Assembly (NCBI RefSeq): GCF_007556585.1
Contig: NZ_VJNA01000016.1
Span: forward strand, 1-64,000
Direction: 5' to 3'
DNA from: Tepidimonas aquatica
Lineage (GTDB): Bacteria > Pseudomonadota > Gammaproteobacteria > Burkholderiales > Burkholderiaceae_C
DNA: 64,000 nt
The stretch's first letter is position 1. Each line of letters opens with the position of its first letter. A program made the position numbers and the translations under genes. Positions 24,770 to 48,864 of the stretch are shown here, piece by piece. A model generated the notes under the pieces. It was not told the origin of the DNA and did not search any database. It was given only the letters and a program-made list of their open reading frames with translations.

Positions 24770-24854
24770 CACGTTGTATGCGTCCAGTACCTTTGGCACT
24801 CGGGGTGGTGTTGGAGGAGGGGTGTTTGGGGTGGTTGCTGGCCGAGTCGATGGT

Positions 24855-25206
24855 GTGGGCGGTTCACCAGGCTGAAAAAGCTGCTGGCTGAGGCGGCCCT
24901 GGACAACGAAGCGCTGAAGGTGGCCTTCGGGGTAAGGCGCTGAGCCCACCGGCCAAGGGACAAGCGGTGGGCAAGATGCTGCAAGAGACCTCGATCAGCG
25001 AACGACGGGCGTGCACCTTGGTGGGCCTGTCGCGTGACAGCTGGCGCACGAGCGCAGGCGCTTCGGCTACCGGCGCATCGGCGACCTGCTGCGAGCCGGC
25101 GGTACGGCGATCAACGACAAGCGCGTGTACCGGCTGTATCGGTTGGCTGACCTGGCGGTGCGCAAACGCCGGGGCAGGTCAGTTGCTCAGCCAAGCGGAT
25201 TTTGAT
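24855..25206 (+). pseudogene. Degenerate IS3-family transposase remnant (orfA tail + broken orfB start)
   Basis: The end of orfA is visible as FTRLKKLLAEAALDNEALKV, ending at the TGA at 24941-24943. It is followed in the overlapping frame by an orfB start, AVGKMLQETSISERRACTLV, up to LSRDSWR. The reading then jumps frame at about 25048 to ERRRFGYRRIGDLLRAGGTA and INDKRVYRLYRLADLAVRKR. A short internal segment between these parts is missing. The DDE catalytic core is absent, so the element is dead. It marks the left edge of the hydrogenase island. Confidence 0.8.
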
Positions 25207-25311
25207 TACCGCGTAACCATTTTTGTTTTTTAATTTTATATTTTGTCCCTTGCCCCAAGCTCACTACAACTCAACCTATTGATTATTAAGGGGTCCGCAA
25301 GAAAAACATAC
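25207..25311. other. AT-rich intergenic stretch between the IS remnant and the hoxK promoter
   Basis: About 100 bases, conspicuously AT-rich (runs of T around 25225-25243) compared with everything around it. No gene is visible. It would suit an upstream region for IHF and activator binding before a sigma-54 promoter, but no individual site was recognised with confidence. Confidence 0.4.
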
Positions 25312-25327
25312 TGGCACGGTTCTTGAT
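25312..25327 (+). promoter_or_regulatory. Sigma-54 (-24/-12) promoter upstream of hoxK
   Basis: TGGCACGGTTCTTGAT matches the RpoN consensus TGGCAC-N5-TTGC(A/T) except that the -12 element reads GA instead of GC. The GG and G(A) doublets are ten bases apart, as required. It lies about 75 bases before hoxK. HoxA, encoded in the same cluster, is an NtrC-type activator of RpoN polymerase, and the homologous MBH operon of Cupriavidus is RpoN-dependent. Confidence 0.75.
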
Positions 25328-25400
25328 ACTGTCCCGTCTGACCTGGCAAGACAGCAGGTCCGACTTGACACCCATCTGATCCCAAGAGGAGACCGTTCCC

Positions 25401-26477
25401 ATGGTGGAAACCTTTTACGAGGTGATGCGGAGGCAGGGCATCACTCGCCGCAGCTTCCTCAAATTCTGCAACCTCACCGCCGCCTCCCTAGGGCTTGGGC
25501 CCAGCTTCGTGCCCCGCATCGCCCACGCCATGGAGACGAAGCCACGCACACCGGTGCTCTGGCTTCACGGCCTAGAGTGCACCTGCTGCTCAGAGTCCTT
25601 TATCCGTTCCGGCCACCCGCTGGCCAAGGACGTGGTGCTGTCCATGATCTCCCTGGACTACGACGACACCCTCATGACCGCCGCCGGCCACGATGCCGAG
25701 GCCATCCTCGAGGAGGTTATGACCAAGTACAAAGGCAACTACATCCTGGCGGTGGAAGGCAACCCGCCCCTGAACCAGGAAGGTATGAGTTGCATCATCG
25801 GCGGCCGACCCTTCGTGGAGCAGCTGAAGCACGTAGCCCGCGACTGCAAGGCCATCATCTCCTGGGGCTCCTGCGCTTCCTGGGGCTGCGTCCAAGCCGC
25901 CAAGCCCAACCCCACCCAGGCCACGCCGGTGCACAAGGTCATCACTGACAAACCCATCATCAAGGTACCGGGCTGCCCCCCCATCGCCGAGGTGATGACC
26001 GGTGTCATCACCTACATGCTGACCTTCGACCGCATCCCCGAGTTGGACCGCCAGGGCCGACCCAAGATGTTCTACGGCCAGCGCATCCACGACAAATGTT
26101 ATCGCCGCCCCCACTTCGACGCCGGCCAGTTCGCCGAGGCCTGGGACGACGAGGGTTCCCGCAAGGGCTACTGCCTCTACAAGATGGGCTGCAAGGGGCC
26201 CACCACCTACAACGCCTGCTCCACCATCCGCTGGAACGGCGGTGTGTCTTTCCCCATCCAGTCGGGCCACGGCTGCATCGGCTGTTCCGAGGACGGATTC
26301 TGGGACAAGGGCTCCTTCTACGACCGGGTTACGGACATCAAGCAGTTCGGGGTGGAATCCAACGCCGACAAGGTGGGTATCACGGCGGTGGGCGTGGTGG
26401 GTGCCGCAGTGGCGGCTCACGCGGCGGTGAGCGCCATCAAGCAAAGCCGGGCCAAGCAGTCCCACGGCAACATGTAA
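25401..26477 (+). CDS. hoxK: Membrane-bound [NiFe]-hydrogenase small subunit (HoxK/HupS)
   Basis: Electron-transfer subunit of the periplasmic H2 uptake hydrogenase; 358 residues. A Tat signal with RRSFLK at residues 16-21 ends near AHA-43. Numbered from that cut, proximal-cluster cysteines stand at 17, 19 and 20 (ECTCCSE) and at 115 and 120 (GSCASWGC). The extra C19 and C120 are the signature of the oxygen-tolerant 4Fe-3S cluster. A C-terminal hydrophobic helix anchors it to the membrane. AGGAGA precedes the ATG. First gene of the operon, 15 bases before hoxG. Confidence 0.97.
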
Positions 26478-26492
26478 CTGAGGACGACGAAC

Positions 26493-28289
26493 ATGGGCGT
26501 TTACGAAACCCAAGGATTCAAGCTAGACAACACCGGCAAGCGCGTGGTGGTGGATCCGGTGACTCGCATCGAGGGCCACATGCGCGTGGAGGTGAACCTA
26601 GACTCCAACAACGTGATTCGCAACGCGGTCTCCACCGGCACCATGTGGCGCGGCCTGGAGGTCATTCTCAAGGGCCGCGACCCCCGGGATGCGTGGGCCT
26701 TTACCGAACGCATCTGCGGCGTGTGCACCGGCACCCATGCCCTCACCAGCGTGCGGGCCGTGGAGGATGCCCTGGACATCAAGATCCCAGAAAACGCTAA
26801 CAGCATCCGCAACATCATGCAGTTGGCGCTGCAGGTGCATGACCACGTAGTGCACTTCTATCATCTCCACGCCCTGGACTGGGTGGATGTGGTTTCCGCC
26901 TTGAATGCCGACCCCAAGAAAACCTCGGAACTGGCCCAGAGCATCTCCCCCTGGCCACTTTCATCCCCCGGTTACTTCAGAGACGTGCAAAACCGGCTGA
27001 AGAAATTCGTGGAATCCGGCCAGCTGGGTCCCTTCATGAACGGCTACTGGGGCAACCCGGCTTACAAGCTGCCCCCCGAGGCCAACCTCATGGCGGTGAC
27101 CCACTACCTGGAGGCCCTGGATTTCCAAAAGGAGGTCGTTAAGGTCCACACCATCTACGGCGGCAAGAACCCCCACCCCAACTGGCTGGTGGGGGGGGTG
27201 CCTTGCGCCATCAATGTCCACGACACGGGTGCGGTCGGTGCCATCAACATGGAGCGCCTGAACCTCGTCTCCTACATCATCGACCGTACCATCGAGTTCA
27301 TCGACCAAGTCTACGTTCCAGACCTACTGGCCATCGGCTCTTTCTACAAGGACTGGACCTACGGCGGCGGTCTCTCTTCCCGCTCGGTTCTGGCCTACGG
27401 CGACATCCCGGACAAGGCCAACGACTATACAGCCTCCAACCTGATGATGCCCCGAGGCGCCATCATCAACGGCGACCTGTCCAAGGTGCACGAGGTGGAT
27501 CTGCGGGACCCCGACCAGATCCAGGAGTTCGTGGACCATTCTTGGTTCGAGTACCACGGAGGCACCCCAGGCAAGGGCCTACACCCCTGGGACGGCGAGA
27601 CCATACCTCATTACGAGCTGGGCAAGAACACCAAGGGGACTTCCACCAACATCGAGCAGATCGACGAGGGTGGCAAGTACTCCTGGATCAAGGCCCCCCG
27701 CTGGCGCGGCCATGCCATGGAAGTGGGCCCTCTGGCCCGCTACATCATCGGCTACGTGCAGAAGAAGCCCGAGTTCAAGGAGCCGGTGGACATGGTTCTG
27801 AAGAAGCTGGACCTGCCGCTCACCGCCCTGTTCTCCACCTTGGGCCGCACCGTCGCCCGGGGCCTGGAGGCATCCTGGGCCGCCCACAAGATGCGCTATT
27901 TCCAGGACAAGCTCGTGGCCAATCTGAAAGCCGGCGACCAAGCCACGGCCAACATCGACAAGTGGGAGCCCTCCACTTGGCCCAAGGAAGCCAAGGGCGT
28001 GGGCTTCAGCGAGGCCCCCCGGGGCGCCCTGGGCCACTGGATTCGCATCAAGGACACCAAAATCGACAACTACCAGTGCGTGGTGCCCACCACCTGGAAC
28101 GGCAGCCCCCGGGATGCCAAGGGTCAGATCGGAGCCTTCGAGGCCAGCCTCTTGAACACCCCAGTAGCCAAGGCAGACCAGCCCGTGGAGATCCTGCGCA
28201 CCATCCACAGCTTTGACCCCTGTCTGGCCTGCTCCACCCACGTGATGTCGCCGAACGGACAGGAAATAAGCAGCGTGAAGGTCAGGTAA
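26493..28289 (+). CDS. hoxG: Membrane-bound [NiFe]-hydrogenase large subunit (HoxG/HupL)
   Basis: Catalytic H2-splitting subunit, 598 residues. The four nickel-binding cysteines lie in RICGVC (C75, C78) and DPCLACSTH near the C-terminus (about C577, C580); the conserved Glu in RIEGH is at 27. After the terminal His a 15-residue extension ([15 protein letters not shown]) follows, which the protease HoxM removes once nickel is inserted. It has no signal peptide and is exported with HoxK. Confidence 0.97.
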
Positions 28290-28367: not shown

Positions 28368-29084
28368 ATGCTCTCAGCACAAGACATGCGGGAAGCGGTG
28401 GACCACGGCCGTAACGTCCGCGCGGTATACGTCTACGAAGCCCCTGTGCGCCTCTGGCATTGGGTCAACGCCTTGGCCATCACGGTGCTGGCCGTCAGCG
28501 GCTGGTTCATCGCCAGCCCTCTGCCCAGTCTGCCGGGCGAGGCCAGCGCCCATTTCCTCATGGGCTACATCCGTTTCATCCATTTCGTCGCCGGCTACGT
28601 GCTGCTGGCCGGATTCCTTGGCCGGATCTACTGGGCCTTCGTGGGCAACGCCCATGCCCGGCAGCTGTTCGTGTTGCCCATCTTCAATGCCAACTGGTGG
28701 AAGGAGGTGCTGTTCGAACTGCGCTGGTACCTGTTCCTGGAGCGGGCCCCGAAGAAGTACGTGGGCCACAACCCCCTGGCTCAACTGGCCATGTTCGGCC
28801 TGTTCCTCACCACGGTGGTGTTCATGATCGTTACCGGCTTCGCCCTCTACGGCGAAGGGGCCCAGGAAGGCAGCTGGTCTCACACCCTGTTCACCTCTTG
28901 GGTTATCCCCCTGTTCGGCCAGAGCCAGGACGTGCACACTTGGCACCATGCGGGCATGTGGGTGATGGTCTTGTTCGTGATGGTCCATGTCTACGCGGCC
29001 ATCCGGGAAGACATCATGTCCCGCCAGAGCTTGGTCTCCACCATGCTGTCCGGTTGGCGCATGTTCAAGGATGACAAGCCGTGA
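28368..29084 (+). CDS. hoxZ: Hydrogenase b-type cytochrome (HoxZ/HupC)
   Basis: Di-haem cytochrome b that anchors HoxKG and passes electrons to quinone; 238 residues with four membrane spans. Candidate haem histidines occur in VRLWHWVNAL, YIRFIHFVAGY and DVHTWHHAGMW. AGGAGAAAGAC stands before the ATG. It follows hoxG after 78 bases, as in other uptake-hydrogenase operons. Confidence 0.95.
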   Translation: MLSAQDMREAVDHGRNVRAVYVYEAPVRLWHWVNALAITVLAVSGWFIASPLPSLPGEASAHFLMGYIRFIHFVAGYVLLAGFLGRIYWAFVGNAHARQLFVLPIFNANWWKEVLFELRWYLFLERAPKKYVGHNPLAQLAMFGLFLTTVVFMIVTGFALYGEGAQEGSWSHTLFTSWVIPLFGQSQDVHTWHHAGMWVMVLFVMVHVYAAIREDIMSRQSLVSTMLSGWRMFKDDKP

Positions 29085-29133: not shown

Positions 29134-29703
29134 ATGAAACGCTTTACCCTCCCCACTGCCCTGTTCCTGTTGCTGGCCTCCGGCACGGCTTTGGCCCATC
29201 CCGGCCACGACGGGGGCCTGGTAGCAGGCCTGACCCACCCTTACACCGGCCTGGACCACCTGCTGGCCATGGTGGCCGTGGGCCTATGGTCCGCCCAGCA
29301 GCCGGCGAAGGACGCCCTGTGGAAGATCCCCCTCGCCTTCGTCTCCGTCATGGCGGTGGGTGCATTCATGGGCATGACTGGCCTGCCCCTGCCTCAGGTG
29401 GAAAACGGCATCGTTGCCTCGGTGGTGTTCCTAGGCCTGCTGGTAGCTTTCTCCCTGCGCCTGCACACTGGTGTAGGCATGGCACTGGTTGCGGCCTTTG
29501 CCCTGTTCCACGGCTACGCCCACGGAGCCGAGGCGCCCCGGGACAGCCTGGCGGCCTTCGCCACCGGTTTCGTCCTGGCCACAGCCTCCCTTCATGGCTT
29601 GGGCGTGGCCCTAGGCTGGTACACCCACCGCCGGGCGGAGGTCATCCTGCGGGTGGGTGGCGCAGGCGTAGCCCTCGCCGGTGCCTGGTTGGCCCTAAAC
29701 TGA
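29134..29703 (+). CDS. hupE: HupE/UreJ-family nickel permease
   Basis: Membrane protein of 189 residues with a signal-like first segment followed by HPGHDGGLVAGLTHPYTGLD, the HupE/UreJ nickel-ligand motif, and about six spans. A second His-rich helix reads FALFHGYAHGAEA. It probably brings Ni2+ into the cell for the hydrogenase. GGAGACC precedes the ATG at 29134. hupE lies between hoxZ and hoxM, whereas the Cupriavidus operon has no gene there and uses hoxN at its far end. Confidence 0.92.
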   Translation: MKRFTLPTALFLLLASGTALAHPGHDGGLVAGLTHPYTGLDHLLAMVAVGLWSAQQPAKDALWKIPLAFVSVMAVGAFMGMTGLPLPQVENGIVASVVFLGLLVAFSLRLHTGVGMALVAAFALFHGYAHGAEAPRDSLAAFATGFVLATASLHGLGVALGWYTHRRAEVILRVGGAGVALAGAWLALN

Positions 29704-29714
29704 GGCTGCTCACC

Positions 29715-30368
29715 ATGGATAGCACCCTGGATTACGCCAGCGACATCCTGGTGCTGGGCATCGGTAACCTGCTGTGGGCCGATGAGGGCTTCGGCATTCG
29801 GGCCCTGGAACACCTGCACCAGCACTGGCGCTTCGGTCCCGGCACCCGCCTGCTGGACGGCGGAACACAGGGTTTGTACTTGCTGCCCTTCGTGGAACAC
29901 TGCCGCAAGCTGCTGATACTGGACGCCGTGGACTACGGCCTGCGCCCGGGTACGGTGAAGATCGCTCGGGACGGCGAGGTGCCCGCCTTCATGGGGGCCA
30001 AGAAGATGAGCCTGCACCAGACCGGCTTTCAGGAGGTCCTGGCGGTGGCCGCTCTGAAGGGATGGCAGCCGGAGCACATCGTCCTCATCGGTGTACAGCC
30101 GGAAACGCTGGAAGACTACGGTGGCAGCCTCACGAACACGGTGAAGACCACGCTGCCCGTGGCCGTCGAAGTAGCGGTTGACGTCCTGCGCACCTGGGGT
30201 GCGGCGCCCGAACGGCGTGCCATGCCCCCCGGCCCAGAGGAGCGTATCACCCTGGACTGCCTGGACATCACGCCCTATGAAAGCCAGCGCCCCAGTCCCG
30301 ACCAAGCCTGCCGCATTGGCGACGGACGATTCCTGGGGCGATTCCTGGAAACGGCGGGGGCTTTCTGA
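29715..30368 (+). CDS. hoxM: Hydrogenase maturation protease (HoxM/HupD)
   Basis: Endopeptidase that removes the C-terminal tail of HoxG after nickel insertion; 217 residues. The nickel-sensing acidic residues of the family are visible in GIGNLLWADEGFG (Glu24), DAVDYG (Asp) and the His in LHQTGF. The C-terminal ~50 residues form an extension beyond the short HyaD/HybD core. The stop overlaps the hoxL start by one base (TGATG), which implies coupled translation. Confidence 0.95.
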   Translation: MDSTLDYASDILVLGIGNLLWADEGFGIRALEHLHQHWRFGPGTRLLDGGTQGLYLLPFVEHCRKLLILDAVDYGLRPGTVKIARDGEVPAFMGAKKMSLHQTGFQEVLAVAALKGWQPEHIVLIGVQPETLEDYGGSLTNTVKTTLPVAVEVAVDVLRTWGAAPERRAMPPGPEERITLDCLDITPYESQRPSPDQACRIGDGRFLGRFLETAGAF

Positions 30369-30673
30369 TGTGTGTCGGCATCCCCATGCAGGTCATCGAA
30401 TGTCATGGCTTCGTCGCCCTGTGCCGGGGCCGTCACGGCGTGCGCCGGCTGGACATGGCACTGGTGGGCGAGCAGTCCCCCGGCACCTGGGTGCTGAGTT
30501 TTATCGATGCCGCCCGGGAAGTGATTAACGCGGAAACGGCGGCCCGTATCGATGCGGCCTTGGACGGCCTGGAAGCGGCGATGGCCGGGGAGACCGACAT
30601 CTCCGCCTATTTCACCGACCTGTTCGACCGCACGCCAGAACTGCCGCCCCATCTGAGAGGATCTGCCCAATGA
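30368..30673 (+). CDS. hoxL: HypC-like hydrogenase chaperone (HoxL/HupF)
   Basis: A 101-residue HypC paralogue starting MCVGIPMQV. The Cys after Met1 is the residue that carries the Fe(CN)2CO unit. HoxL/HupF proteins are specific to the large subunit of the membrane-bound enzyme and are needed in aerobic growth in related systems. The acidic C-terminal tail is longer than in HypC, as normal for HupF. It overlaps hoxM by one base and hoxO by four. Confidence 0.93.
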   Translation: MCVGIPMQVIECHGFVALCRGRHGVRRLDMALVGEQSPGTWVLSFIDAAREVINAETAARIDAALDGLEAAMAGETDISAYFTDLFDRTPELPPHLRGSAQ

Positions 30674-31104
30674 CCCAACTTCATCCCCTCATTCAGCGTC
30701 TCACTGCTGAATACGGCCTTCCCCTGCTGGATCCCGGCAACCTCAACACCTTCTGCGATGCGCCAGGTGACGCCGTGCTGTTCTGCGGCGGTGACCCGGT
30801 GCAGCACCCGGAATGCCTGGACGTGGCCGTGGTGCTGCCGGAACTGCTGCGGGCGTTCCCCGGTCGCTTCCGGGCCGCCGTAGTCTCCACTGCCCTGGAA
30901 TCCGAGATACAGGCCCGCTACGGCTTCAACCGCAAACCCACCCTGGTGTTTCTGCGGGGCGGCGCCTATATCGGCGCCCTGTCCGGCATCCAGGACTGGG
31001 CCGTCTATCTTGACCGCATCCAGGAACTTTTGGCCGCGCCCCCCAGCCGGCCACCATCCATCGGCATCGCCGTCAACGCCTTGGGCCCCGCCGTCTGCCA
31101 CTGA
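30670..31104 (+). CDS. hoxO: HyaE-family thioredoxin-like chaperone (HoxO/HupG)
   Basis: A 144-residue protein of the HyaE/HupG family, which has a thioredoxin fold without a CxxC redox pair and acts as a Tat-signal chaperone for the small-subunit precursor. Conserved parts are AAVVSTALESEIQARYGFNR and KPTLVFLRGGAYIGALSGIQ. Its ATG overlaps the hoxL stop. Confidence 0.92.
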   Translation: MTQLHPLIQRLTAEYGLPLLDPGNLNTFCDAPGDAVLFCGGDPVQHPECLDVAVVLPELLRAFPGRFRAAVVSTALESEIQARYGFNRKPTLVFLRGGAYIGALSGIQDWAVYLDRIQELLAAPPSRPPSIGIAVNALGPAVCH

Positions 31105-31114
31105 GGAATCCGCC

Positions 31115-31954
31115 ATGCATGCCTTCCCCATTCCCGTCGTCGCCCTAGGCCCTGGCTCCCACCAGGAAGAGGAGCCCCTGGATTACCTGCCCATGCCCCA
31201 CGACATGCGCACCTTCCAGCCCCCCATCCTACCGGAGCCGCAAGACATTCGTGACCACACCGCTGTCCGGGCCTGGCTAGAGCAGTTGTTGGAAGCCACC
31301 CAGAAATGGCGCCCCGGCGGGGGCTCCTACTGTCTGGACATGCATCACTTGGCCGAAAAGGACCGGCAGCTCATCAACCAGCTGCTGGGCGAAGGGGAGG
31401 TCAGCGCCCAGGTCACTGGCGAGGATGGTGTCCTCTCCATCCAGGAAAGCGTGTTCGCTGGCGTGTGGCGCCTGCTGGGACGGGACAAGGATGGCCACCT
31501 CTATATGGACCGGGTGGAAGTGGGCGACGTGCCCGCCGCCATCCTTTGCGCCGCCATGACCGGCCTGGCCAAGCCCGCCCAAGCCCCGGTCAGTCCCGGC
31601 GTCATCAACGCCCCGGCCCTGCTGGCGGAGATCGCGGAGCACACCGCCCGTCCCGACGGCGGCACCCACGTCATCAATCTGTCCCTGCTGCCCTTCTCGC
31701 CTGAGGACGCCGCCTGGCTGGACGAACGCTTGGGCCGGGGCCCGGTCACCCTGCTATCCCGGGGCTACGGCAACTGCCGCATCACCGCCACGGGCATTGC
31801 CCGGGTCTGGTGGGTGCAATACTTCAATTCCCAGGATGCCCTGATCCTCAACACCCTGGAGGTCAGCGACGTGCCGGAAGTAGCCCGGGCCTCGGCTGAG
31901 GACCTGGAAGACAGTGCAGATCGCCTGGCGGAAGTCCTGGCCTGGATCGGCTAA
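31115..31954 (+). CDS. hoxQ: Hydrogenase expression/formation protein (HoxQ/HupH)
   Basis: A 279-residue HupH/HyaF-family protein. The two related halves of the family, each with a LPxSxxD/E pattern, are visible as LGEGEVSAQV with SIQESVFAGVWR and LGRGPVTLLSRGYGNCRITA with VWWVQYFNSQD. Such proteins help mature the small subunit and its clusters with HoxO. The ATG at 31115 was chosen because it follows the hoxO stop closely and begins MHAFPIPV, as in homologues. Confidence 0.93.
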   Translation: MHAFPIPVVALGPGSHQEEEPLDYLPMPHDMRTFQPPILPEPQDIRDHTAVRAWLEQLLEATQKWRPGGGSYCLDMHHLAEKDRQLINQLLGEGEVSAQVTGEDGVLSIQESVFAGVWRLLGRDKDGHLYMDRVEVGDVPAAILCAAMTGLAKPAQAPVSPGVINAPALLAEIAEHTARPDGGTHVINLSLLPFSPEDAAWLDERLGRGPVTLLSRGYGNCRITATGIARVWWVQYFNSQDALILNTLEVSDVPEVARASAEDLEDSADRLAEVLAWIG

Positions 31955-32024
31955 ACATGAAGGCTGCAATTACGAATCCGGCAAGGGGCAGACAAAGCGG
32001 GGGCCGTATGGCCACAATACACCC

Positions 32025-32240
32025 ATGACCACCTTCGAAGGCTCCTACCTGGGCGACGCCAGCCGCCTGCCTCCAGACGCCCGGCTGGAGTGCAAGATCT
32101 GCTGGTATGTCTATGACCCTGCCGAGGGTGACCCGGTGTGGCAGATTTCCCCCGGCACCCCCTTCGCTAACCTCCCGCCCCATTGGCGCTGCCCCAACTG
32201 CGACGGCGCCCGGGAACAGTTCATGGTGCTGCATGACTGA
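32025..32240 (+). CDS. hoxR: Hydrogenase-associated rubredoxin (HoxR/HupI)
   Basis: A 71-residue rubredoxin with both iron-binding knuckles, CKICWYVYDPAEGD and CPNCDGAREQFMV. HoxR/HupI rubredoxins are thought to supply or receive an electron while the oxygen-tolerant proximal cluster is built, and they occur with hydrogenases matured in air. The ATG at 32025 gives the family N-terminus; eight bases overlap with hoxT. Confidence 0.94.
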   Translation: MTTFEGSYLGDASRLPPDARLECKICWYVYDPAEGDPVWQISPGTPFANLPPHWRCPNCDGAREQFMVLHD

Positions 32241-32748
32241 CGTTGACCACTCCAATCCCTCCGGTCGACTAGAGGCTGCCTTTCGCCACATCGCCGACAC
32301 CCGCATGGCGGGTATGGCCTTGGTGAATCCAGCCCTAGCGGTGGAGGCTGTGGGCTTCCGCCAGTTGGGGCAGGTCTGGGTAGGCGTGCTCATCACCCCC
32401 TGGTCCATGAGCCTTATCTGCCTGCCCGCTACCGACGCCGAATGGGAAGCCCTGCCAAGCGGCACCAAACGGGAGGTGGAATTTCCTTCCGGCACCTACG
32501 AATTCCTCACCGCCCACGAAGCCGTCCTGGGCCCCTATCTCACCAGCTCCCTGTTCTCCCCCATGTTTGATTTTGCAGACATGGATCAGGCCAGGGCGGT
32601 GGCGGTGGCCGTGCTGGCTGAGGTCTTTGCGCCCCAGGCGGCAGATATACCGGCAACACCTGCCCCCAGTTTGAGCACCAAGCTGGAACGATCGGCGAGC
32701 CGCCGAGGTTTCCTAGGGGCCCTCCTGGGCCAGGGAAGCCCGTCATGA
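32233..32748 (+). CDS. hoxT: [NiFe]-hydrogenase assembly chaperone (HoxT/HupJ, HybE family)
   Basis: A 171-residue HybE/HupJ-family chaperone. The core MAGMALVNPALAVEAVGFR, VGVLITPWSMSLICLP and EFPSGTYEFLTAHE is well conserved. The C-terminus carries SRRGFLGALLG, a twin-arginine-like end common in HupJ proteins and probably a docking mimic rather than a signal. It starts inside hoxR and its stop overlaps hoxV by four bases. Confidence 0.9.
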   Translation: MTDVDHSNPSGRLEAAFRHIADTRMAGMALVNPALAVEAVGFRQLGQVWVGVLITPWSMSLICLPATDAEWEALPSGTKREVEFPSGTYEFLTAHEAVLGPYLTSSLFSPMFDFADMDQARAVAVAVLAEVFAPQAADIPATPAPSLSTKLERSASRRGFLGALLGQGSPS

Positions 32749-33941
32749 CCAATCGACTCGAAGGCCGCATCCACGTACGCCTGACCCAACATGAGGACAG
32801 GATCGCCGACGTTGCCATCCGCTCTACCCGACCCCAGCTGGCCCGCAAACTCATGACCGGTCGCACCCCCGAGGAAGCGGCCGACCTGGCGGGTTTGATC
32901 TTTAGTCTGTGCGGTCAGGCCCAGCGGGCCGCAGCCAAGGCTGCATGCCGGGCGGCCTTGGGGATCACGGATGAGACGGCCGGCACCCCCTCCGTGCTCA
33001 TGGAACTGGCCCGGGAACACGCCTGGCGCCTGTTGCTGGACTGGCCCCAGGAAGCCGGGCAGGCACCAGACATGACCAGCCTGATGGCCTTGCGTCAGGC
33101 GAATGAAGAAACGTTTGCCGATACCCTGGCCGCCCTTGTGCGCGAACGCCTGCTGGGGGAAGCCCCATCTGACTGGTTGACCCGCGATTTGGCCGGCTTG
33201 GATGCCTGGATACGACAAGGCGGCACCCTCCCCGCTCGCCTTTTCGCCAGCCTGGGCGACGGCCCTGACACCGGCATCAGCCATACCGGATTTCTACCGG
33301 AACTGTCGGCGTGGAGCCTGGAAACAGCCACGGACCTGGCCCATCGTGCACTGGACGAGCAGGCCTTCTGCACCCTGCCGGACTGGCGAGGCGCACCGGC
33401 GGAAACCGGGGCCATCGCCCGTACCCATGGCCATCCCCTGGTGGCCGGATGGATAGCCCGACGGGGACGGGGCATGGGTGCCCGCCTGCTGGCCCGACTA
33501 GTGGAACTGGCAACCCTGCCTGAACGGTTCCGCAAGGGTAGCCTGCCAGTCATCCATGCATGGTCCATATCAAAAGATGCGGAACAGGTAGGCCTCGCCG
33601 GCGTGGAAACCTCCCGGGGTCTCTTGTTCCATGTGGCCACCCTAAGGGACGGCAAGGTGGCGGACTACCGCATCCTGGCCCCTACGGAGTGGAACTTCCA
33701 CCCCGCCGGCCCCCTGGCTCAGGCACTGATCGGCTTGAGGGCCGAAAAAGAACTGGCCAAGCTGGTGGCCCATTCCCTGGATCCCTGCGTGGGCTTTGAT
33801 GTGGAGGTTCATGTGGAGCAGGAAGTGGGCATGGTTCTCAAGGAGTGTCCATTATTAGAGGATGAGTGGACGATGAAGCGTTTCGGTTCCGGAATGGCCC
33901 CGACTATCAACTTTGCACTACCCACTTCCCGCCATGCATGA
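32745..33941 (+). CDS. hoxV: Large-subunit-like assembly scaffold (HoxV/HupK)
   Basis: A 398-residue relative of the hydrogenase large subunit that serves as a scaffold while the Fe(CN)2CO unit is passed to HoxG. The nickel motifs are reduced, as is normal for HupK. The N-terminal pair survives only as SLCGQAQ, and the C-terminal motif as LDPCVGFDVEVHVE, without the second cysteine. It is therefore not an enzyme. The stop overlaps the hypA start region by eight bases. Confidence 0.92.
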   Translation: MTNRLEGRIHVRLTQHEDRIADVAIRSTRPQLARKLMTGRTPEEAADLAGLIFSLCGQAQRAAAKAACRAALGITDETAGTPSVLMELAREHAWRLLLDWPQEAGQAPDMTSLMALRQANEETFADTLAALVRERLLGEAPSDWLTRDLAGLDAWIRQGGTLPARLFASLGDGPDTGISHTGFLPELSAWSLETATDLAHRALDEQAFCTLPDWRGAPAETGAIARTHGHPLVAGWIARRGRGMGARLLARLVELATLPERFRKGSLPVIHAWSISKDAEQVGLAGVETSRGLLFHVATLRDGKVADYRILAPTEWNFHPAGPLAQALIGLRAEKELAKLVAHSLDPCVGFDVEVHVEQEVGMVLKECPLLEDEWTMKRFGSGMAPTINFALPTSRHA

Positions 33942-34275
33942 AATGTCCCTAGCGGAGAGTGTCCTTCAGATTGTGGAAGACACCGCCGCCCAGCAGGGTT
34001 TCAAGCGAGTGACGGAAGTGCGCCTGGAGATCGGCGCCCTCTCCGGCGTGGAAGTGGAAGCCCTGTGCTTCTGCATGGATGTGGTGTTCAAGGGCAGCGT
34101 GGCCGATGGCGCCCGGGTGGAACTGGAACGCCTCCCCGGCCAGGGCTGGTGCCTGGGCTGCGGCGAATCCGTCGAAATCCAGGCCCTGTATGACCCCTGT
34201 CCCAAGTGCGGCAGCTACCAGGTCCAAGCCACGGGGGGAACGGAAATGCGGGTCAAGGACATGCTGGTTGAATAG
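33934..34275 (+). CDS. hypA: Hydrogenase nickel-insertion protein HypA
   Basis: Nickel metallochaperone, 113 residues. The N-terminal MHE (Ni2+ ligand His2) and two zinc CxxC pairs, CLGCGE and CPKCGS, are intact. I chose the ATG at 33934, seven codons into the open frame, because HypA activity needs His directly after Met. It works with HypB, encoded 17 bases downstream. Confidence 0.96.
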
Positions 34276-34292
34276 TTTTCGGAGAGACGAAC

Positions 34293-35318
34293 ATGTGCAC
34301 GGTATGCGGCTGCGGCGAAGGCGAAACCCGGATCGAGGGTCATTACCCCCACCATGATCATGGCCACAGCCATGATCATCCACACGATCACACCCATGAA
34401 CATGTACACGCTGACGGCACCGTGCATAGCCACGGACACACGCACACCCATAGCCACGACCACACCGACCATGGACACGTCCATGAGCACCTGCATGCCA
34501 GCGGCAAAACCCATTACCACGCACATCATGGCGACCTCCACTACGGTCGGGGCCCCGCCCATGCCCACGCCCCGGGCCTGACCCAGGAGCGCATGGTCCG
34601 CATCGAGCAGGACATCCTGGCCAAGAACAACGCCTACGCGGCCGACAACCGCAAGTATTTCGCCGAGCATGGCATCTTCGCCGTCAACCTGGTATCCAGC
34701 CCCGGCTCCGGCAAAACGACCCTGCTGGTGCAAAGCATCAAGATGCTTGCCGATAAAGCAAAGGTGGCCGTGGTGGAAGGCGATCAGCAGACCAGCCATG
34801 ACGCCGACCGCATCCGCGCCACGGGAGCCCCCGCCATCCAGGTCAACACCGGCAAGGGCTGTCACCTGGACGCCCACATGGTGGGCCGCGCCCTGGAACG
34901 CTTGAACCTGCCCGACGACAGCCTGCTCATGATCGAGAACGTGGGTAACCTGGTGTGCCCCGCCGCCTTCGACCTGGGGGAGGCCCACAAGGTGGTCATC
35001 CTGTCGGTGACGGAAGGCGTGGACAAGCCGCTGAAATACCCGGACATGTTCCGCGCCGCCGATTTGATGTTGCTGAACAAGGTGGACCTGTTGCCCTACC
35101 TCACCTTCGACGTGGCCACGTGTGTGGACTACGCCCGCCGTGTGAATCCCAGGCTCCAGGTCATGCAGGTATCTGCTACCAGCGGCCAGGGCATGGAGGA
35201 GTGGCTGAACTGGCTCATGGCCGGATTGAATAAGGCCAAGACGGCGCGCTTGCAAAACGTGGAATGGCTAAAGCAGCGAATTGCTGAGTTGGAAATGCGG
35301 TTGGCGGGTCAGGGTTAA
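34293..35318 (+). CDS. hypB: Hydrogenase nickel-insertion GTPase HypB with long His-rich region
   Basis: GTPase that drives nickel delivery to the large subunit; 341 residues. The high-affinity nickel motif CTVCGCGEG follows Met1. Residues ~17-92 contain about thirty histidines, a nickel-storage segment. The G domain then begins with [11 protein letters not shown] (P-loop) and includes [22 protein letters not shown] and NKVDL. It is longer than average mainly because of the His region. hypF follows after ten bases. Confidence 0.97.
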
Positions 35319-35328
35319 CCACTTCCAG

Positions 35329-37701
35329 ATGAACCATAACGCCGAGGTCACTAGGCAATCTTCCAGCTTGTTTCTCCGACGCCGCCTGCGCGTCACCGGC
35401 ATCGTCCAGGGCGTAGGTTTCCGTCCCTACGTCTGGCGCCTGGCCATGGAACTAAACCTGTCCGGATGGGTTCGCAACGACGCTGCCGGGGTGGAGATCC
35501 TGGTGGAGGGCGAGCGCCACCGCATTGAGGCCTTTACCCGCCGCCTGCCCGTGGAAATCCCGCCCCTGGCGCGGGTGCGGGAACTGAGTTGGGACGACGC
35601 GCCCCACAGCGGGGAACACACAGGGTTTGTCATCACCGAAAGCGGCGCCGGCCGGGCCAGCACCATGATCGGCCACGACACGGCGGTGTGCCTCGACTGT
35701 CTGACAGAGATGTTCGACCCTGCCGACCGACGCTGGCGCTACGCCTTCATCAACTGCACCAACTGCGGCCCCCGCTACACCCTCACCCGGTGCCTGCCCT
35801 ACGACCGGGCCCAGACCAGCATGGCACCCTTTCCGCTGTGTCCGGACTGCGAGAAGGAATACCGTAACCCCGCCGACCGGCGCTTTCACGCAGAACCCAC
35901 GGCCTGTCCGGTGTGCGGCCCTCGTTTGGCTCTGGTGGATGTCCGGGGAAACGCCATTCCGTGTGACGACCCCATCACCGCAACCATTCAACTTTTACAG
36001 GCAGGCCAAATCGTCGCCATCAAGGGCCTAGGGGGCTTTCACCTAGCCTGCGATGCTCGCAATGCCGAGGCCGTACAGCGACTGCGGGCACGCAAGCAGC
36101 GGGATGAGAAGCCCTTCGCCGTCATGGCGGCCAATCCGGCTTCCCTGGCCGAGTGGGTGGAGATGAGCGAGGCCGAACAGGCCCTGCTCACTTGCCGTGA
36201 GCGGCCCATCGTTCTGCTGCGCAAGAAATGCGGAGCCGACGCCGCCTTGCCCGGCATCGCCCCGGGCCTGGCCTGGTTGGGGGTGATGCTGCCCTACGCG
36301 CCCTTGCAGTGGCTGATCTTCCACGAGGCGGCGGGTCGGCCCGCTGGTACGGAATGGATACACCATCCCCAGGGCCTGATGTTGGTGATGACCAGTGCCA
36401 ACCCGGGGGGCGAACCCCTGGTGAGCCACAACGACGAGGCCATCGACCGCCTGGGCAACATCGCTGATGCCGTGCTGCTCCACGATCGGGACATCGTCGT
36501 ACGTTGCGATGACAGCGTGGTGCGTATGAGCGCCAACAACGGGCCCCAGTTCATACGCCGCGCCCGGGGCTACACACCTCGGGCCATTCGACTTTCCCGC
36601 TGCGGTCCGTCGGTGCTGGCCCTCGGAAGCCACCTCAAGAACACTCTTTGCGTGACCCGGGGGAACGATGCCTTCGTCTCCCAGCATATCGGCGGCCTGG
36701 ACAACCCCGCCACCTGCAACATGCTCCAGGAAGTCACGGAACACCTCCTCCACATCCTGCAGGTGAGACCGGAGGCCGTGGCCCACGACCTGCACCCGGA
36801 CTTCTTCAGCAGCCACTATGCCTTGGAACTGGCGGATGCCTGGGGTTTGCCCACCATCGCCGTGCAGCACCACCACGCCCACATCGCCGCCGTGGCGGCG
36901 GAGCACGGCGTGGAACGGCCTTTGTTGGGCCTGGCCCTGGACGGCGTGGGCCTGGGTTCCGACCACACGTCCTGGGGCGGTGAGTTGTTACGCGTGGACG
37001 GCGCTGCATTCACCCGCCTGGGCCACCTCACCCCCCTGCCCATGCCCGGCGGCGACAAGGCGGCCAAGGAACCGTGGCGCATGGCGGCCGCGGCCCTGTT
37101 CCTGCTGGGCCGTGCCGACGACATTCCCCGCCGTTTCACCGCCCAGCCCGTGGCCCGGCAGCTCCGCGTGATGCTTGAGCACAACCTCCACTGCCCCCCC
37201 ACCACCAGCCTGGGCCGCTGGTTCGACGCGGCGGCCGGATTGTTGGGAGTGCGTAACGTAATGACCTTCGAAGGCCAGGCGGCCATGCTGCTGGAAGGCC
37301 TGGCTGAGGAAGCTGGAGACGTGTCTCCGTTGACCGACGCCTACGTGCTCCATGCCGATGGCAAGCTAGATCTGCTGCCCCTACTGGCCCGCCTGGCCGA
37401 CGAAACCGATGCGCGACGCGGTGCTGCCCTGTTCCACGCCACCCTGGCCCGCGCCCTGGCGGACTGGACGCTACAGGCCGCGGAACAACAGAGTCTGGAC
37501 ACCGTGACCCTGGGGGGAGGCTGCTTCCTCAACCACATCCTGTCCCGCCACTTGGCCAACCATCTGACAAGCCAAGGCCTGCGGGTTCTGGAGGCCCGAC
37601 AGATACCCCCGAACGACGGAGGGTTGAGCCTGGGCCAGGCCTGGGTTGCAATTAGTTCACTCAACAATCGTCAGCTGAAGGGGACGCGGAGCGATCCTTA
37701 A
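35329..37701 (+). CDS. hypF: Carbamoyltransferase HypF
   Basis: Makes the cyanide ligand precursor from carbamoyl phosphate and places it on HypE; 790 residues. Order: acylphosphatase-like domain (VTGIVQGVGFRPYVWRLA, residues ~22-39), two zinc fingers (CLDCLTEMFDPADRRWRYAF, then CPDCEKEYRNP and CPVCGPRLA), a YrdC-like domain (IVAIKGLGGFHLACDA) and a Kae1-like carbamoyltransferase domain with the metal motif VQHHHAHIAAV. The start at 35329 (MNHNAEV) avoids overlap with hypB; no strong ribosome site is visible. Confidence 0.95.
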   Translation: MNHNAEVTRQSSSLFLRRRLRVTGIVQGVGFRPYVWRLAMELNLSGWVRNDAAGVEILVEGERHRIEAFTRRLPVEIPPLARVRELSWDDAPHSGEHTGFVITESGAGRASTMIGHDTAVCLDCLTEMFDPADRRWRYAFINCTNCGPRYTLTRCLPYDRAQTSMAPFPLCPDCEKEYRNPADRRFHAEPTACPVCGPRLALVDVRGNAIPCDDPITATIQLLQAGQIVAIKGLGGFHLACDARNAEAVQRLRARKQRDEKPFAVMAANPASLAEWVEMSEAEQALLTCRERPIVLLRKKCGADAALPGIAPGLAWLGVMLPYAPLQWLIFHEAAGRPAGTEWIHHPQGLMLVMTSANPGGEPLVSHNDEAIDRLGNIADAVLLHDRDIVVRCDDSVVRMSANNGPQFIRRARGYTPRAIRLSRCGPSVLALGSHLKNTLCVTRGNDAFVSQHIGGLDNPATCNMLQEVTEHLLHILQVRPEAVAHDLHPDFFSSHYALELADAWGLPTIAVQHHHAHIAAVAAEHGVERPLLGLALDGVGLGSDHTSWGGELLRVDGAAFTRLGHLTPLPMPGGDKAAKEPWRMAAAALFLLGRADDIPRRFTAQPVARQLRVMLEHNLHCPPTTSLGRWFDAAAGLLGVRNVMTFEGQAAMLLEGLAEEAGDVSPLTDAYVLHADGKLDLLPLLARLADETDARRGAALFHATLARALADWTLQAAEQQSLDTVTLGGGCFLNHILSRHLANHLTSQGLRVLEARQIPPNDGGLSLGQAWVAISSLNNRQLKGTRSDP

Positions 37702-37724
37702 CCGGCAGCGAAAGGAAATTCTTC

Positions 37725-38000
37725 ATGTGTCTCGCCATCCCCGCCCGCGTGGTGGAAATCGCAGAAAAAGACCAGGCCATCGTGGACCTGGGCGGCGTGC
37801 GCAAGGACGTCTCCCTGGCCCTGGTGGAGGACGTACAGGTAGGCGACTACGTCATCGTCCACGTGGGCTATGCTCTCACACGCTTGGACCCGGAAGAGGC
37901 GGAGAAAACCCTGGCCTTGATGGCTGAGGCGGGGCTGACACCGGAGGCGATATCAATAACCACTCCGCCATTCCCGCACGGACGGGAATCCATGCATTGA
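37725..38000 (+). CDS. hypC: Hydrogenase assembly chaperone HypC with a repeat-derived tail
   Basis: Carries the Fe(CN)2CO unit between HypD and the large subunit; 91 residues beginning MCLAIPARVV, with the essential Cys2. The HypC fold ends near residue 77. The last ~12 codons (ending PFPHGRESMH) lie in a palindromic repeat (37970-37989) unlike HypC homologues, so the natural C-terminus has apparently been replaced. About 40 bases separate it from hypD. Confidence 0.93.
   Translation: MCLAIPARVVEIAEKDQAIVDLGGVRKDVSLALVEDVQVGDYVIVHVGYALTRLDPEEAEKTLALMAEAGLTPEAISITTPPFPHGRESMH
37970..37989. repeat. dRS3-like palindrome at the end of hypC
   Basis: ATTCCCG-CACGGA-CGGGAAT: a perfect 7-bp inverted repeat with a six-base loop. 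It resembles the ATTCCC...GGGAAT dispersed repeats known from Neisseria and other betaproteobacteria. It lies inside the hypC reading frame and supplies part of its last codons. Confidence 0.7.
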
Positions 38001-38039
38001 TCATCTGGGCCCTGCCCGCGAAGAAACAGTAATACTACC

Positions 38040-39176
38040 ATGAAATACGTCGACGAGTTTCGTGATGGGAAAGTCGCCAAAGGCTTGGCAGCTGCCATCG
38101 CCGCCGAGGTCCGCGACGACCGCCGTTATAACTTCATGGAGTTCTGCGGTGGCCACACCCATGCCATCTCCCGATATGGGGTGCCGGACCTGCTACCCCC
38201 CAACGTGCGCATGATTCACGGTCCCGGCTGCCCTGTGTGCGTGCTGCCCATCGGCCGCATCGACCTGGCCATCAAGCTGGCCCTGGAGCACGACGTCATC
38301 CTCTGCACCTACGCAGACACCCTGCGCATCCCAGCCTCTGGCGGTCTCTCCCTGATGAAGGCGAAAGCACAGGGGGGTGACATACGCATGGTCTACGCGG
38401 TAACCGATGCCCTGAAGATCGCCCGAGACCATCCGGACAAGGAGGTGGTGTTCTTTGCCATTGGCTTCGAGACCACCACCCCGCCCACGGCGGTGGCTAT
38501 CAAGCAAGCCCAGGCGGAGGGTCTGAAGAACTTCAGCGTGCTGTGCTGTCACGTGCTCACGCCGTCGGCCATCATGAACATCCTGGAATCGCAGCAGGCG
38601 CGGGAGCTGGGAACCGTACCCATCGACGGCTTCATCGGCCCAGCCCACGTCTCCACGGTGATTGGCAGCCGACCTTACGCGTTTTTTGCCGAGGAATACC
38701 GCAAACCCGTAGTCATTGCGGGCTTCGAGCCCCTGGACGTCATGCAGGCTATCCTCATGCTGGTGCGCCAGGTGAACGAGGGCCGCGCCGAGGTGGAGAA
38801 CGAATTCACCCGGGCGGTGACCCCGGAAGGCAACACCAAGGCCCAGAACCTAGTGTCCGAGGTGTTCGAGTTGCGCCGCAGCTTCGAATGGCGGGGCCTG
38901 GGGGAGGTGCCCTACTCCGCCCTGAAGATCCGGGAAGGCTTTGCTGACTTCGACGCCGAACGGCGCTTCCACCTGGAGTACCAGCCGGTGCCCGACAACA
39001 AGGCCTGCGAGTGTGGCGCCATACTCCGGGGGGTGAAGAAGCCCACGGACTGCAAAATCTTCGGCACCGTGTGCACGCCCGAGAATCCCATGGGTAGCTG
39101 CATGGTGTCCTCGGAGGGCGCCTGCTCGGCTCACTACACCTATGGGCGATACAAGGATATGGAGACGACGGCATGA
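38040..39176 (+). CDS. hypD: Hydrogenase formation protein HypD
   Basis: Iron-sulfur scaffold on which, with HypC, Fe receives CN and CO ligands; 378 residues. The diagnostic sequences are present: EFCGGHTHAISRYG, HGPGCPVCVLP, GFETTTPPTA and the C-terminal cluster cysteines in ACECGAIL, CKIFGTVCTP and GSCMVSSEGACSA. It follows hypC after about 40 bases. Confidence 0.97.
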   Translation: MKYVDEFRDGKVAKGLAAAIAAEVRDDRRYNFMEFCGGHTHAISRYGVPDLLPPNVRMIHGPGCPVCVLPIGRIDLAIKLALEHDVILCTYADTLRIPASGGLSLMKAKAQGGDIRMVYAVTDALKIARDHPDKEVVFFAIGFETTTPPTAVAIKQAQAEGLKNFSVLCCHVLTPSAIMNILESQQARELGTVPIDGFIGPAHVSTVIGSRPYAFFAEEYRKPVVIAGFEPLDVMQAILMLVRQVNEGRAEVENEFTRAVTPEGNTKAQNLVSEVFELRRSFEWRGLGEVPYSALKIREGFADFDAERRFHLEYQPVPDNKACECGAILRGVKKPTDCKIFGTVCTPENPMGSCMVSSEGACSAHYTYGRYKDMETTA

Positions 39177-39199
39177 CGGTGTGCATGATGGATTCGTCA

Positions 39200-39300
39200 C
39201 TGAAATCCCCCCAGCCCCCTCGCAACGGGGGGTGGAAAACGTGCCGCCCTCTACCGGAGCGGCCCTTCCTTTTCCAAAGGGAGGGCAGGAGGAACTCCAC
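39200..39300. repeat. Island-specific palindromic repeat, copy 1 (hypD-hypE gap)
   Basis: C- and G-runs form imperfect palindromes (CCCCCT...AGGGGG type). The 16-base core CTCCCTTTGGAAAAGG is present on the minus strand at 39268-39283. The same core recurs at 40747-40762 and 42570-42585. No gene is visible in this 156-base gap. Confidence 0.6.
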
Positions 39301-39332
39301 CGACCGGCAATGGCCACTTCAGGACTGACCCC

Positions 39333-40385
39333 ATGATCGGCCAAGTGAAAAAGGGTTATGTCCGCCCCCTGGACATCAAGCACGGCCGCGTGGACATGAG
39401 CCACGGCGGCGGCGGCCGGGCCATGGTGCAACTCATCACCGATCTATTCGCCAACCACCTAGGCAATGAATATCTGGCCCAGGGCAACGACGGTACCTGC
39501 CTGCCCCCCTGCACCGGCCGCATGGTGGTGTCCACCGACAGCCATGTGGTTTCGCCCCTCTTCTTCCCCGGCGGCGACATCGGCTGCCTTTCGGTCCATG
39601 GCACGGTGAACGACGTGGCGGTCATGGGGGCCACGCCCCTGTACCTCACCGCCGGCTTCATCCTCGAGGAAGGTTTTCCCCTCGAGAGCCTGGCTCGCAT
39701 CGTGGAATCCATGGCCAGGGCGGCGAAAGCAGCGGGCGTGAAGCTCGTAGCCGGCGACACCAAGGTGGTGGAACAAGGCAAGGGAGACGGGGTATTCATC
39801 ACCACCACCGGGGTGGGCTTCCTTCCCGAGGGTGTGCACCTGTCCGGTGACCTGGCCCGGCCCGGGGATGCGGTACTGTTGTCCGGCACCCTAGGGGATC
39901 ATGGCGTGGCCATCCTAAGCAAGCGGGAGAACCTCTCCTTCGATGCGCCCATCCTCTCGGACACGGCGGCCCTGAACGGCCTGACCGCCGCCATGCTGGC
40001 CTCGGGGGCTGCCATCCGGGTCATGCGCGACCCCACTCGGGGCGGTCTGGCCGCCACCCTCAACGAAATCGCCCACCAATCGGGTGTGGGCATCCACCTT
40101 GACGAGGCGGCCATTCCCATCAAGCCGGAGGTGGACGCCGCCTGCGAACTGCTGGGCCTGGATCCCCTCAACATCGCCAACGAAGGCAAGCTCGTCGCCA
40201 TTTGCGCCGCCGAGGACGCGGACAGGCTTCTGGCCGCGATGCGCGCTCACCCTCAGGGTCAGGCCGCTGCCCTCATTGGCAAGGTGGTGGAAGACCCCAA
40301 CTGTTTCGTGCAGATGAAGACCCGATTCGGCGGACGGCGGATGGTGGACTGGCTAAGTGGTGAGCAGTTGCCGAGGATTTGCTGA
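39333..40385 (+). CDS. hypE: Hydrogenase maturation protein HypE
   Basis: PurM-fold enzyme that dehydrates its C-terminal thiocarbamate to thiocyanate, the donor of the active-site CN; 350 residues. HGRVDMSHGGGGRAMVQLI and DSHVVSPLFFPGGDIG are typical, and it ends with PRIC, whose Cys is the modified residue. The ATG at 39333 is preceded by a poor ribosome site. A later start is possible but would cut into the conserved N-terminus. Confidence 0.96.
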   Translation: MIGQVKKGYVRPLDIKHGRVDMSHGGGGRAMVQLITDLFANHLGNEYLAQGNDGTCLPPCTGRMVVSTDSHVVSPLFFPGGDIGCLSVHGTVNDVAVMGATPLYLTAGFILEEGFPLESLARIVESMARAAKAAGVKLVAGDTKVVEQGKGDGVFITTTGVGFLPEGVHLSGDLARPGDAVLLSGTLGDHGVAILSKRENLSFDAPILSDTAALNGLTAAMLASGAAIRVMRDPTRGGLAATLNEIAHQSGVGIHLDEAAIPIKPEVDAACELLGLDPLNIANEGKLVAICAAEDADRLLAAMRAHPQGQAAALIGKVVEDPNCFVQMKTRFGGRRMVDWLSGEQLPRIC

Positions 40386-40411
40386 GTGTGTGAAAGAACT
40401 CTAATCCCCCC

Positions 40412-40560
40412 TAGCAGGCCGTTGAAAAACGTCGCGAGGATGGCCAGATGCAAGGCGCACGGAGCACAGCGACCGAAGCCTATCAAACAGATAGGCGAGG
40501 GTGCGAGCACCGCGCAGCGCCGCAGATGGCCTACCGCAGCAGTTTTTCAACGGCCTGTTA
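40412..40560. mobile_element. MITE-like element, copy 1
   Basis: A 149-base element bounded by 19-base terminal inverted repeats (TAGCAGGCCGTTGAAAAAC and its complement with one mismatch), each ending in TA. A second copy of identical length, with five substitutions, lies at 46667-46815. It has no transposase. The small minus-strand frame starting MKNCCGRPSAALRGAR is a by-product of its sequence. Confidence 0.85.
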
Positions 40561-40679
40561 GGCAGCGGGATACCTGGCTGAACGCCCAGAGCATCCACGT
40601 CATGAGATTCGATGACCGGCAGGCTTTGTGGAGACCGCAGTGGTGAAGATGATACTCGGGGCCGTACAACAAGCCATAG

Positions 40680-40795
40680 CCACTGAAACCCACCCAGCCC
40701 TCCTATTGCAAAAGGGGGAGTAACGACAGCGCCGAACGAATGGCTCCTCCCTTTGGAAAAGGGATGACAGGAGGGATTCAGCGACGTCTCCATAC
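40680..40795. repeat. Island-specific palindromic repeat, copy 2 (before hypX)
   Basis: Contains CCTCCTATTGCAAAAGGGGG and the shared core CTCCCTTTGGAAAAGG at 40747-40762 followed by GATGACAGGAGGGATT. It occupies the hypE-hypX gap together with MITE copy 1. No coding sequence is seen between 40386 and 40817. Confidence 0.6.
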
Positions 40796-40817
40796 GCGAC
40801 GAAGGTACAACCTGACC

Positions 40818-48667: not shown

Positions 48668-48861
48668 CCTCACGGGCACAAGTTTGCTACCCGTGAGCAG
48701 GCCCGGCTGGCGGTACTGGACTGGGTGGCTTTTTACAATCACCGCCGGCTGCATTCGTCGCTGGGCTATCTCAGCCCGATGCAGTTCGAGCAACGCTGGT
48801 ACGAGGCGCAGCGCAAAATGCCGTCTGAGCCGGGGGTTAAGAACGCCACGAAACAGGGACA
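48656..48861 (+). pseudogene. C-terminal fragment of an IS3-family transposase
   Basis: Reads EYPHGHKFATREQARLAVLD, WVAFYNHRRLHSSLGYLSPM, QFEQRWYEAQRK, the end of an IS3-type DDE transposase including its last catalytic Glu region. Everything N-terminal is missing. The frame then runs into pntB antisense. The sequence ACGAAACAGGGACA (48848-48861) probably is the right terminal repeat of the IS; it stops three bases from the pntB stop codon. Confidence 0.75.
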
Positions 48862-48864
48862 AGG

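Follow-up and report, generated by a model that had tools for sequence, protein, structure and literature searches.

The regulatory circuit of HoxA, HoxBC, HoxJ and an RpoN-type promoter is already known from Cupriavidus necator, in which plasmid pHG1 of strain H16 carries a hydrogenase cluster with the gene order hoxKGZMLOQRTV-hypA1B1F1CDEX-hoxABCJ. In the window analysed here, the whole 64-kb stretch of DNA from Tepidimonas aquatica, a cluster of the same content and order (hoxK-G-Z ... hyp ... hypX-hoxA-B-C-J) runs on one strand from 25401 to 48241. In contrast to the H16 system, it is chromosomal and located between rplN and pntB, its HoxA features a GAYTGA motif and an altered HTH, and a site of the form TGRTTAC-N3-GTAAYCA precedes hoxK. 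Taken as a whole, the data make it probable that positions 25203-25338 represent the HoxA/IHF/RpoN control region of an imported membrane-bound hydrogenase island with hoxK as its first gene. The structural part of this island comprises the following features:

24772 to 48864, no strand assigned: inserted hox island of 24,093 bp, defined relative to empty sites in the same genus
24865 to 25169, forward strand: relic of a broken IS3-family (IS1477/IS476-like) transposase, recognized by its 71-74% identity to plasmid copies in blastn (query 86-390), with broken frames
25401 to 26477, forward strand: hoxK, hydrogenase small subunit (TIGR00391, 567.3 bits)
26493 to 28289, forward strand: hoxG, large subunit
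28368 to 29084, forward strand: hoxZ, b-type cytochrome (TIGR02125)
29286 to 42497, forward strand: maturation genes hoxM to hoxV, hypA, hypB, hypF, hypC, hypD, hypE and hypX

Names were assigned by family for hoxM, hoxO, hoxT, hoxV, hypB, hypF, hypD, hypE and a hypX-like two-part protein, and by position in the pHG1 order for hoxL, hoxQ, hoxR, hypA and hypC. Homology of the left flank to related genomes stops by 24771 at the latest, and the right flank resumes from 48865 (48863 in two). An empty site was found in four of ten genomes of the same genus, in which both flanks lie on one contig at distances of 506, 235, 100 and 85 bp (G024, G151, G200 and G204, respectively), while the other six have the flanks on different contigs or lack one of them (G205) and thus have no say on the insertion. 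hoxK itself is present in three of the eleven genomes of the genus, its own included. The right edge (about 48671-48867) consists of IS-like sequence that is repeated in several relatives. In a tree comprising 81 HoxA proteins, that of the window is placed far from those of G203 and G207, two genomes of the same genus. Based on the empty sites and the HoxA phylogeny we conclude that the block is a horizontally acquired island, and the hox cluster seems to have been picked up from a distant relative. The proposal of the sequence-only reading, an island that brings along an activator, a sensor and an RpoN-type promoter, was borne out, with the insertion itself demonstrated by the empty sites.

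For the comparison of promoters, 110 upstream regions were scanned, drawn from the 80 best of 596 hoxK loci, 28 stretches from genomes of the family, and the window, pHG1 and pBN2; locus L140, only 33% identical, was left out. The bases at -12 and -16 were excluded from the scoring. A score of at least 0.8 was reached by 105 of the 110 upstreams, 104 entered the near-copy filter at a score of at least 0.82, and 92 were kept, a set chosen for having the element, given that 10.5% of shuffles pass at 0.82 and 2.2% at 0.88. The search for HoxA covered the genomes belonging to 58 of these 80 loci plus 29 further genomes, and five of all these gave no match; after removal of three best matches that were probable paralogues (L200, L230 and L261), 79 proteins were kept and aligned with those of the window and pHG1, resulting in 81 rows, 77 of them different.

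The regulatory genes are encoded together at the distal end of the island:

42646 to 44112, forward strand: hoxA, NtrC-type response regulator (D56; GAYTGA at 43366-43383; altered Fis-type HTH at 43978-44037)
44093 to 45115, forward strand: hoxB, regulatory hydrogenase small subunit
45233 to 46669, forward strand: hoxC, regulatory hydrogenase large subunit, with I62 and F110 retained
46826 to 48241, forward strand: hoxJ, histidine kinase (AHELNNP phospho-acceptor motif; GTGLGL G-box at 48038-48055)

I62 and F110 of HoxC have a role in gas access. The earlier assignment of a GAYTGA-bearing HoxA (aa 241-246), HoxB, HoxC and HoxJ to the end of the block opposite hoxK held up. HoxA is full length and contains PF00072, PF00158 and PF02954 (receiver, sigma-54 AAA and Fis-type HTH), and the receiver Asp column of the alignment holds D in 80 of 81 rows with one gap. 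Among the 81 proteins, variants of GAFTGA include GSFTGA in 11 and GAYTGA in four. Activators with tyrosine at a GAFTGA position, which we take to be the one affected in GAYTGA, are mentioned in PMC7057263, so that GAYTGA need not be disabling. With AHELNNP and GTGLGL, HoxJ appears to have an H box and a G box fit for kinase activity, and its G-box carries Gly where C. necator H16 has Ser (GTGLSL at the aligned place). According to PMC10073562, H16 HoxJ is inactive and S422G restores activity; the aligned H16 residue is Ser 403 in the 447-residue RefSeq reading and corresponds to S422 only if the numbering of that study begins 19 residues further upstream, which is likely. The island HoxJ may thus be a naturally H2-responsive version, and the intact G-box leads us to expect true control by H2.

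The host RpoN on which the promoter would depend is complete (527 aa) and contains all three Sigma54 domains. A second rpoN was considered because of the C40 match and discarded, as the only sensible frame there belongs to a dgt-like gene (named by eye) on the other strand. Upstream of hoxK, the following elements were assigned:

25312 to 25327, forward strand: sigma-54 promoter, with -24 part TGGCACG and -12 part CTTGAT (C at -16, A at -12)
25338 to 25340, forward strand: predicted transcription start, placed from the -12 position

The promoter sequence, TGGCACGGTTCTTGAT, is the sole exact match to TGGCAC-N5-TTGAT in the 64-kb window. It had been reported to lie 75 bases before hoxK; the element proved to be unique and rightly placed, whereas the distance to the ATG at 25401 is 73 bases. 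When up to two mismatches were allowed, the window yielded 20 matches versus a shuffled mean of 14.25, a count equalled by 7 of 100 shuffles and hence not clearly above chance, so that the weight of the element comes from its position and conservation. A score of at least 0.9 within the last 260 bases (-12 unscored) was obtained for 79 of the 110 sampled hoxK upstreams, and for 69 of the 92 that remained after removal of near-copies and scores below 0.82, compared to 1.4% of shuffled upstreams. A chance match, in favour of which speaks that the relaxed pattern is not clearly enriched, can be practically dismissed in view of the unique exact match and the conservation of the element at hoxK. 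By these comparisons the window element is very probably a real promoter of the RpoN type.

The consensus of sigma-54 promoters at -12 is TTGCW, with C at -12. While the window promoter has GG at -25/-24 and G at -13 at standard spacing, it lacks this C and carries A at 25326, and the earlier note had correctly read its dinucleotide as GA rather than GC. GA is not peculiar to this promoter, as promoters without C at -12 form the majority at hoxK (52 of 92; 48 of 77 good non-redundant promoters at a score of at least 0.88): of the 92 kept, 40 carry C at this position, 37 T, 14 A and a single one G. The pHG1 hoxK promoter likewise has an RpoN-type element with a base other than C at -12 (AGGCATAGATCTTGTT, assigned in the present analysis). 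At the same threshold of 0.88, C at -16 occurs in 44 of the 48 hoxK promoters that lack C at -12 versus 7 of the 29 that have it, and the information content at -16 amounts to 1.50 bits in the T class, 1.63 in the A class and 0.01 in the C class, compared to 0.04-0.08 bits at -18 in all three classes alike. As a control, the 1500 bases upstream of amtB were scanned in 30 genomes at a score of at least 0.88: 24 of 30 had a match, 23 of these having C at -12, and the opposite strand gave a match in 2 of 30. The difference to hoxK (48 of 77 without C) is significant in Fisher's test (p = 2e-7, kinship among genomes still included). The lone non-C amtB promoter, L282, reads CTTGT and so has C at -16 as well.

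An independent-pairs test of -16 with -12 was non-significant (5 and 2 supported pairs; about 3 versus 1 and 0.6 versus 0), and the relation between both positions rests on 7-8 changes on trees. As these are too few to prove co-evolution, our claim is a constraint at -16 within the non-C class and not repeated co-evolution. We also considered CTTGW as a general sigma-54 element, which was rejected: among the matches listed for 39 genomes, 67 were CTTGW and 128 DTTGW (C share 34%), and pattern counts over these genomes gave no general excess of CTTGW outside hoxK, although chance matches dominate. Nor do we claim a coupling of GAYTGA with a non-C base at -12: all four GAYTGA proteins go with non-C promoters, but three of them are related to each other and such promoters are frequent in any case. 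In the genus of the window, two more hoxK genes are present, both with C at -12: L157 (G207) carries TGGCCCGTGGTTTGCA with a score of 0.93 and an 8/9 IHF site, and L158 (G203) carries TGGTCCAAGGTTTGCA with a score of 0.82 and a match of 17.0 to the upstream activating site (UAS) profile described below at -184.

Among the closest known systems are the hox loci of Tepidiphilus sp. J10 and Gallionellaceae STA_18 (L033 and L034), whose HoxK proteins are 94% and 93% and HoxA proteins 73% and 74% identical to those of the window, respectively. Both have the element TGGCACGCTTCTTGAT, as in the window, and since CTTGAT is present there as well, the GA of the window looks inherited. We regard the window promoter as probably representing the hoxK-type CTTGW form and not a damaged TTGC. 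The suggestion that GA may lower or tighten activity need not hold, because most hoxK promoters have a base other than C at -12, generally together with C at -16, and the comparison lends no support to a special weakening.

Between promoter and upstream region lies a predicted IHF site:

25272 to 25284, reverse strand: IHF consensus site, 9/9, centre at about -60, assigned by consensus match and positional enrichment at hoxK promoters

This sequence, CAACCTATTGATT, is the only 9/9 match on both strands of the window versus 0.2 expected, and a 9/9 match arose in 6 of 2000 shuffles of the 60-base stretch around it; the corresponding IHF-like sites of L033 and L034 reach 8/9. Across the 92 promoters, sites of at least 8/9 accumulate with centres at -80 to -61 (35 versus 1.5 expected) and -60 to -41 (10 versus 1.35), compared to 17 versus 10.5 elsewhere. 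None of the main -12 classes lacks them (17 of 40 promoters with C, 18 of 37 with T and 6 of 14 with A), which argues that the non-C hoxK promoters are real. The sequence-only reading had stated that the island needs only host RpoN; a complete RpoN is indeed available, but the statement left out IHF. In the scheme given in PMC7057263, activator sites lie 100-150 bp upstream and IHF has a looping role, and the candidate activator site and predicted IHF site of the window would fit this scheme.

It is very improbable that another sigma factor mainly drives the hoxK operon. Such control has been put forward for the operon of C. metallidurans that encodes its membrane-bound hydrogenase, for which PMC9045368 reports a non-RpoD start and excludes RpoN because HoxA is truncated. 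The island HoxA is full length with all domains present, a sigma-70-like promoter was not found in 24780-25420, and both sigma-54 and IHF elements are conserved at hoxK promoters.

Counting of dyads in the region from -230 to -85 revealed pairs fitting CTGGAAG-N5-CTTCCAG far above shuffles, and most hoxK upstreams contain a helically phased dyad TGGAAR-N5-YTTCCA. The fitted palindromic profile scored at least 14 in 62 of 92 upstreams versus 1, 3, 4 and 10 in four refitted shuffles. The centres cluster near -111, -120, -131, -142, -163 and -174, with a best period of 10.9 bp (R 0.64, with related sequences being non-independent). P_SH of pHG1, which was outside the fit and is a HoxA target according to PMC10073562, has the sigma-54 element TGGCGCACATCCTGCG and a profile score of 16.3 at centre -174; unlike the window, it shows C at -12 and half sites of the canonical type. 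The dyad is thus probably the site of HoxA, an assignment kept at this level because pHG1's own hoxK promoter is a poor match (11.1 at -262). A sequence definition of the HoxA operator was not found in the literature searched, although classic C. necator work in subscription journals may contain one.

In the window this canonical site is absent, with a best profile score of 2.8 at -127 and a best match of 7/12. A search for HoxA sites in 25207-25311 had been recommended, and a lineage-specific candidate was identified, albeit partly outside this range:

25203 to 25219, forward strand: candidate HoxA upstream activating site TGATTACCGCGTAACCA, centre at about -127, 14/14 to a motif in common with L034 and L033

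The variant motif TGRTTAC-N3-GTAAYCA is matched at 14/14 by the window and by L034 (TGGTTACAAGGTAACCA) and at 12/14 by the hybrid site of L033 (TGGAAACAAGGTAATCA), the next best of 105 upstreams reaching 11/14. None of 3000 shuffles of the window region scored above 12. In the whole genome, 25203-25219 alone matches the motif with no more than one mismatch; two mismatches occur at two further places, versus six places for a reversed control pattern. The proteins of the window, L044, L034, L033 and L036 form a group in the HoxA tree with support of 100/100, and at least 12/14 of the variant site is present in three of these five clade members versus 0 of 100 other upstreams, with L036 and L044 lacking it; the half sites that visual inspection suggested for L036, L044 and L082 were not accepted. 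A lysine of the recognition domain, K in 76 of 76 other HoxA proteins, is L or V in all five clade members, and where 73 of the 76 others have the valine of S-R-V-G-L-R, this clade has L or P. Hence, the recognition domain of HoxA and, apparently, its site have diverged in the lineage of the window. L044 and L082, both JAKQCX records, are two hoxK loci in one genome bin: the locus on the contig with the window-like HoxA has a promoter resembling Piscinibacter-type loci, whereas the other combines a 9/9 IHF site with an element like that of the window, a pattern reflecting either a mosaic operon or a mixed bin.

The strongest result against a fully working window site is its position, as -127 is 4.4 bp off the common phase (period 10.9). 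In L033 and L034 the site is centred at -142 and -112, respectively. Moreover, the IS3 relic ends at 25169, about 33 bases upstream of the candidate, and the region may thus have been damaged. Along with the missing canonical site, this would fit an insertion at the left edge that lost or displaced the original site, leaving the RpoN promoter poorly activated, or activated by HoxA from solution or from an unusual helix face. We consider this unlikely, given that the variant site is intact and common to L034 and, less perfectly, L033, and that hoxK, hoxG, hoxA, hoxB, hoxC and hoxJ are all full-length open frames.

In the favoured reading of this region, TGGCACG-N3-CTTGAT would be occupied by RNA polymerase containing host RpoN, IHF at 25272-25284 would bend the DNA, and HoxA at TGATTAC-N3-GTAACCA would open the promoter. 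By analogy to C. necator, whose H2-sensor logic the island would share (PMC10073562 and PMC11540253), HoxJ would phosphorylate and thereby silence HoxA without H2, whereas with H2 HoxBC would stop HoxJ and leave HoxA unphosphorylated and active.

We regard three points as fresh, each put forward from sequence comparison: a class of hoxK promoters, a phased motif for HoxA, and an activator that, apparently along with its site, has changed in the lineage of the window. More tentatively, hoxK promoters may constitute a distinct sigma-54 class with CTTGW in place of TTGCW, the absent C at -12 being made up for by one at -16. In this lineage, altered recognition-domain residues may have shifted HoxA from TGGAAR-N5-YTTCCA to TGRTTAC-N3-GTAAYCA, and the result would be an insulated H2 switch that can pass from host to host with no cross-talk. 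At hoxK, exchanging -16 and -12 would put the requirement of sigma-54 promoters for C at -12 to a direct test. Across many hydrogen-oxidising Proteobacteria, a probable HoxA operator and its helical phasing are thereby defined by sequence, and two HoxA specificities are predicted, which could be useful for orthogonal H2 biosensors.
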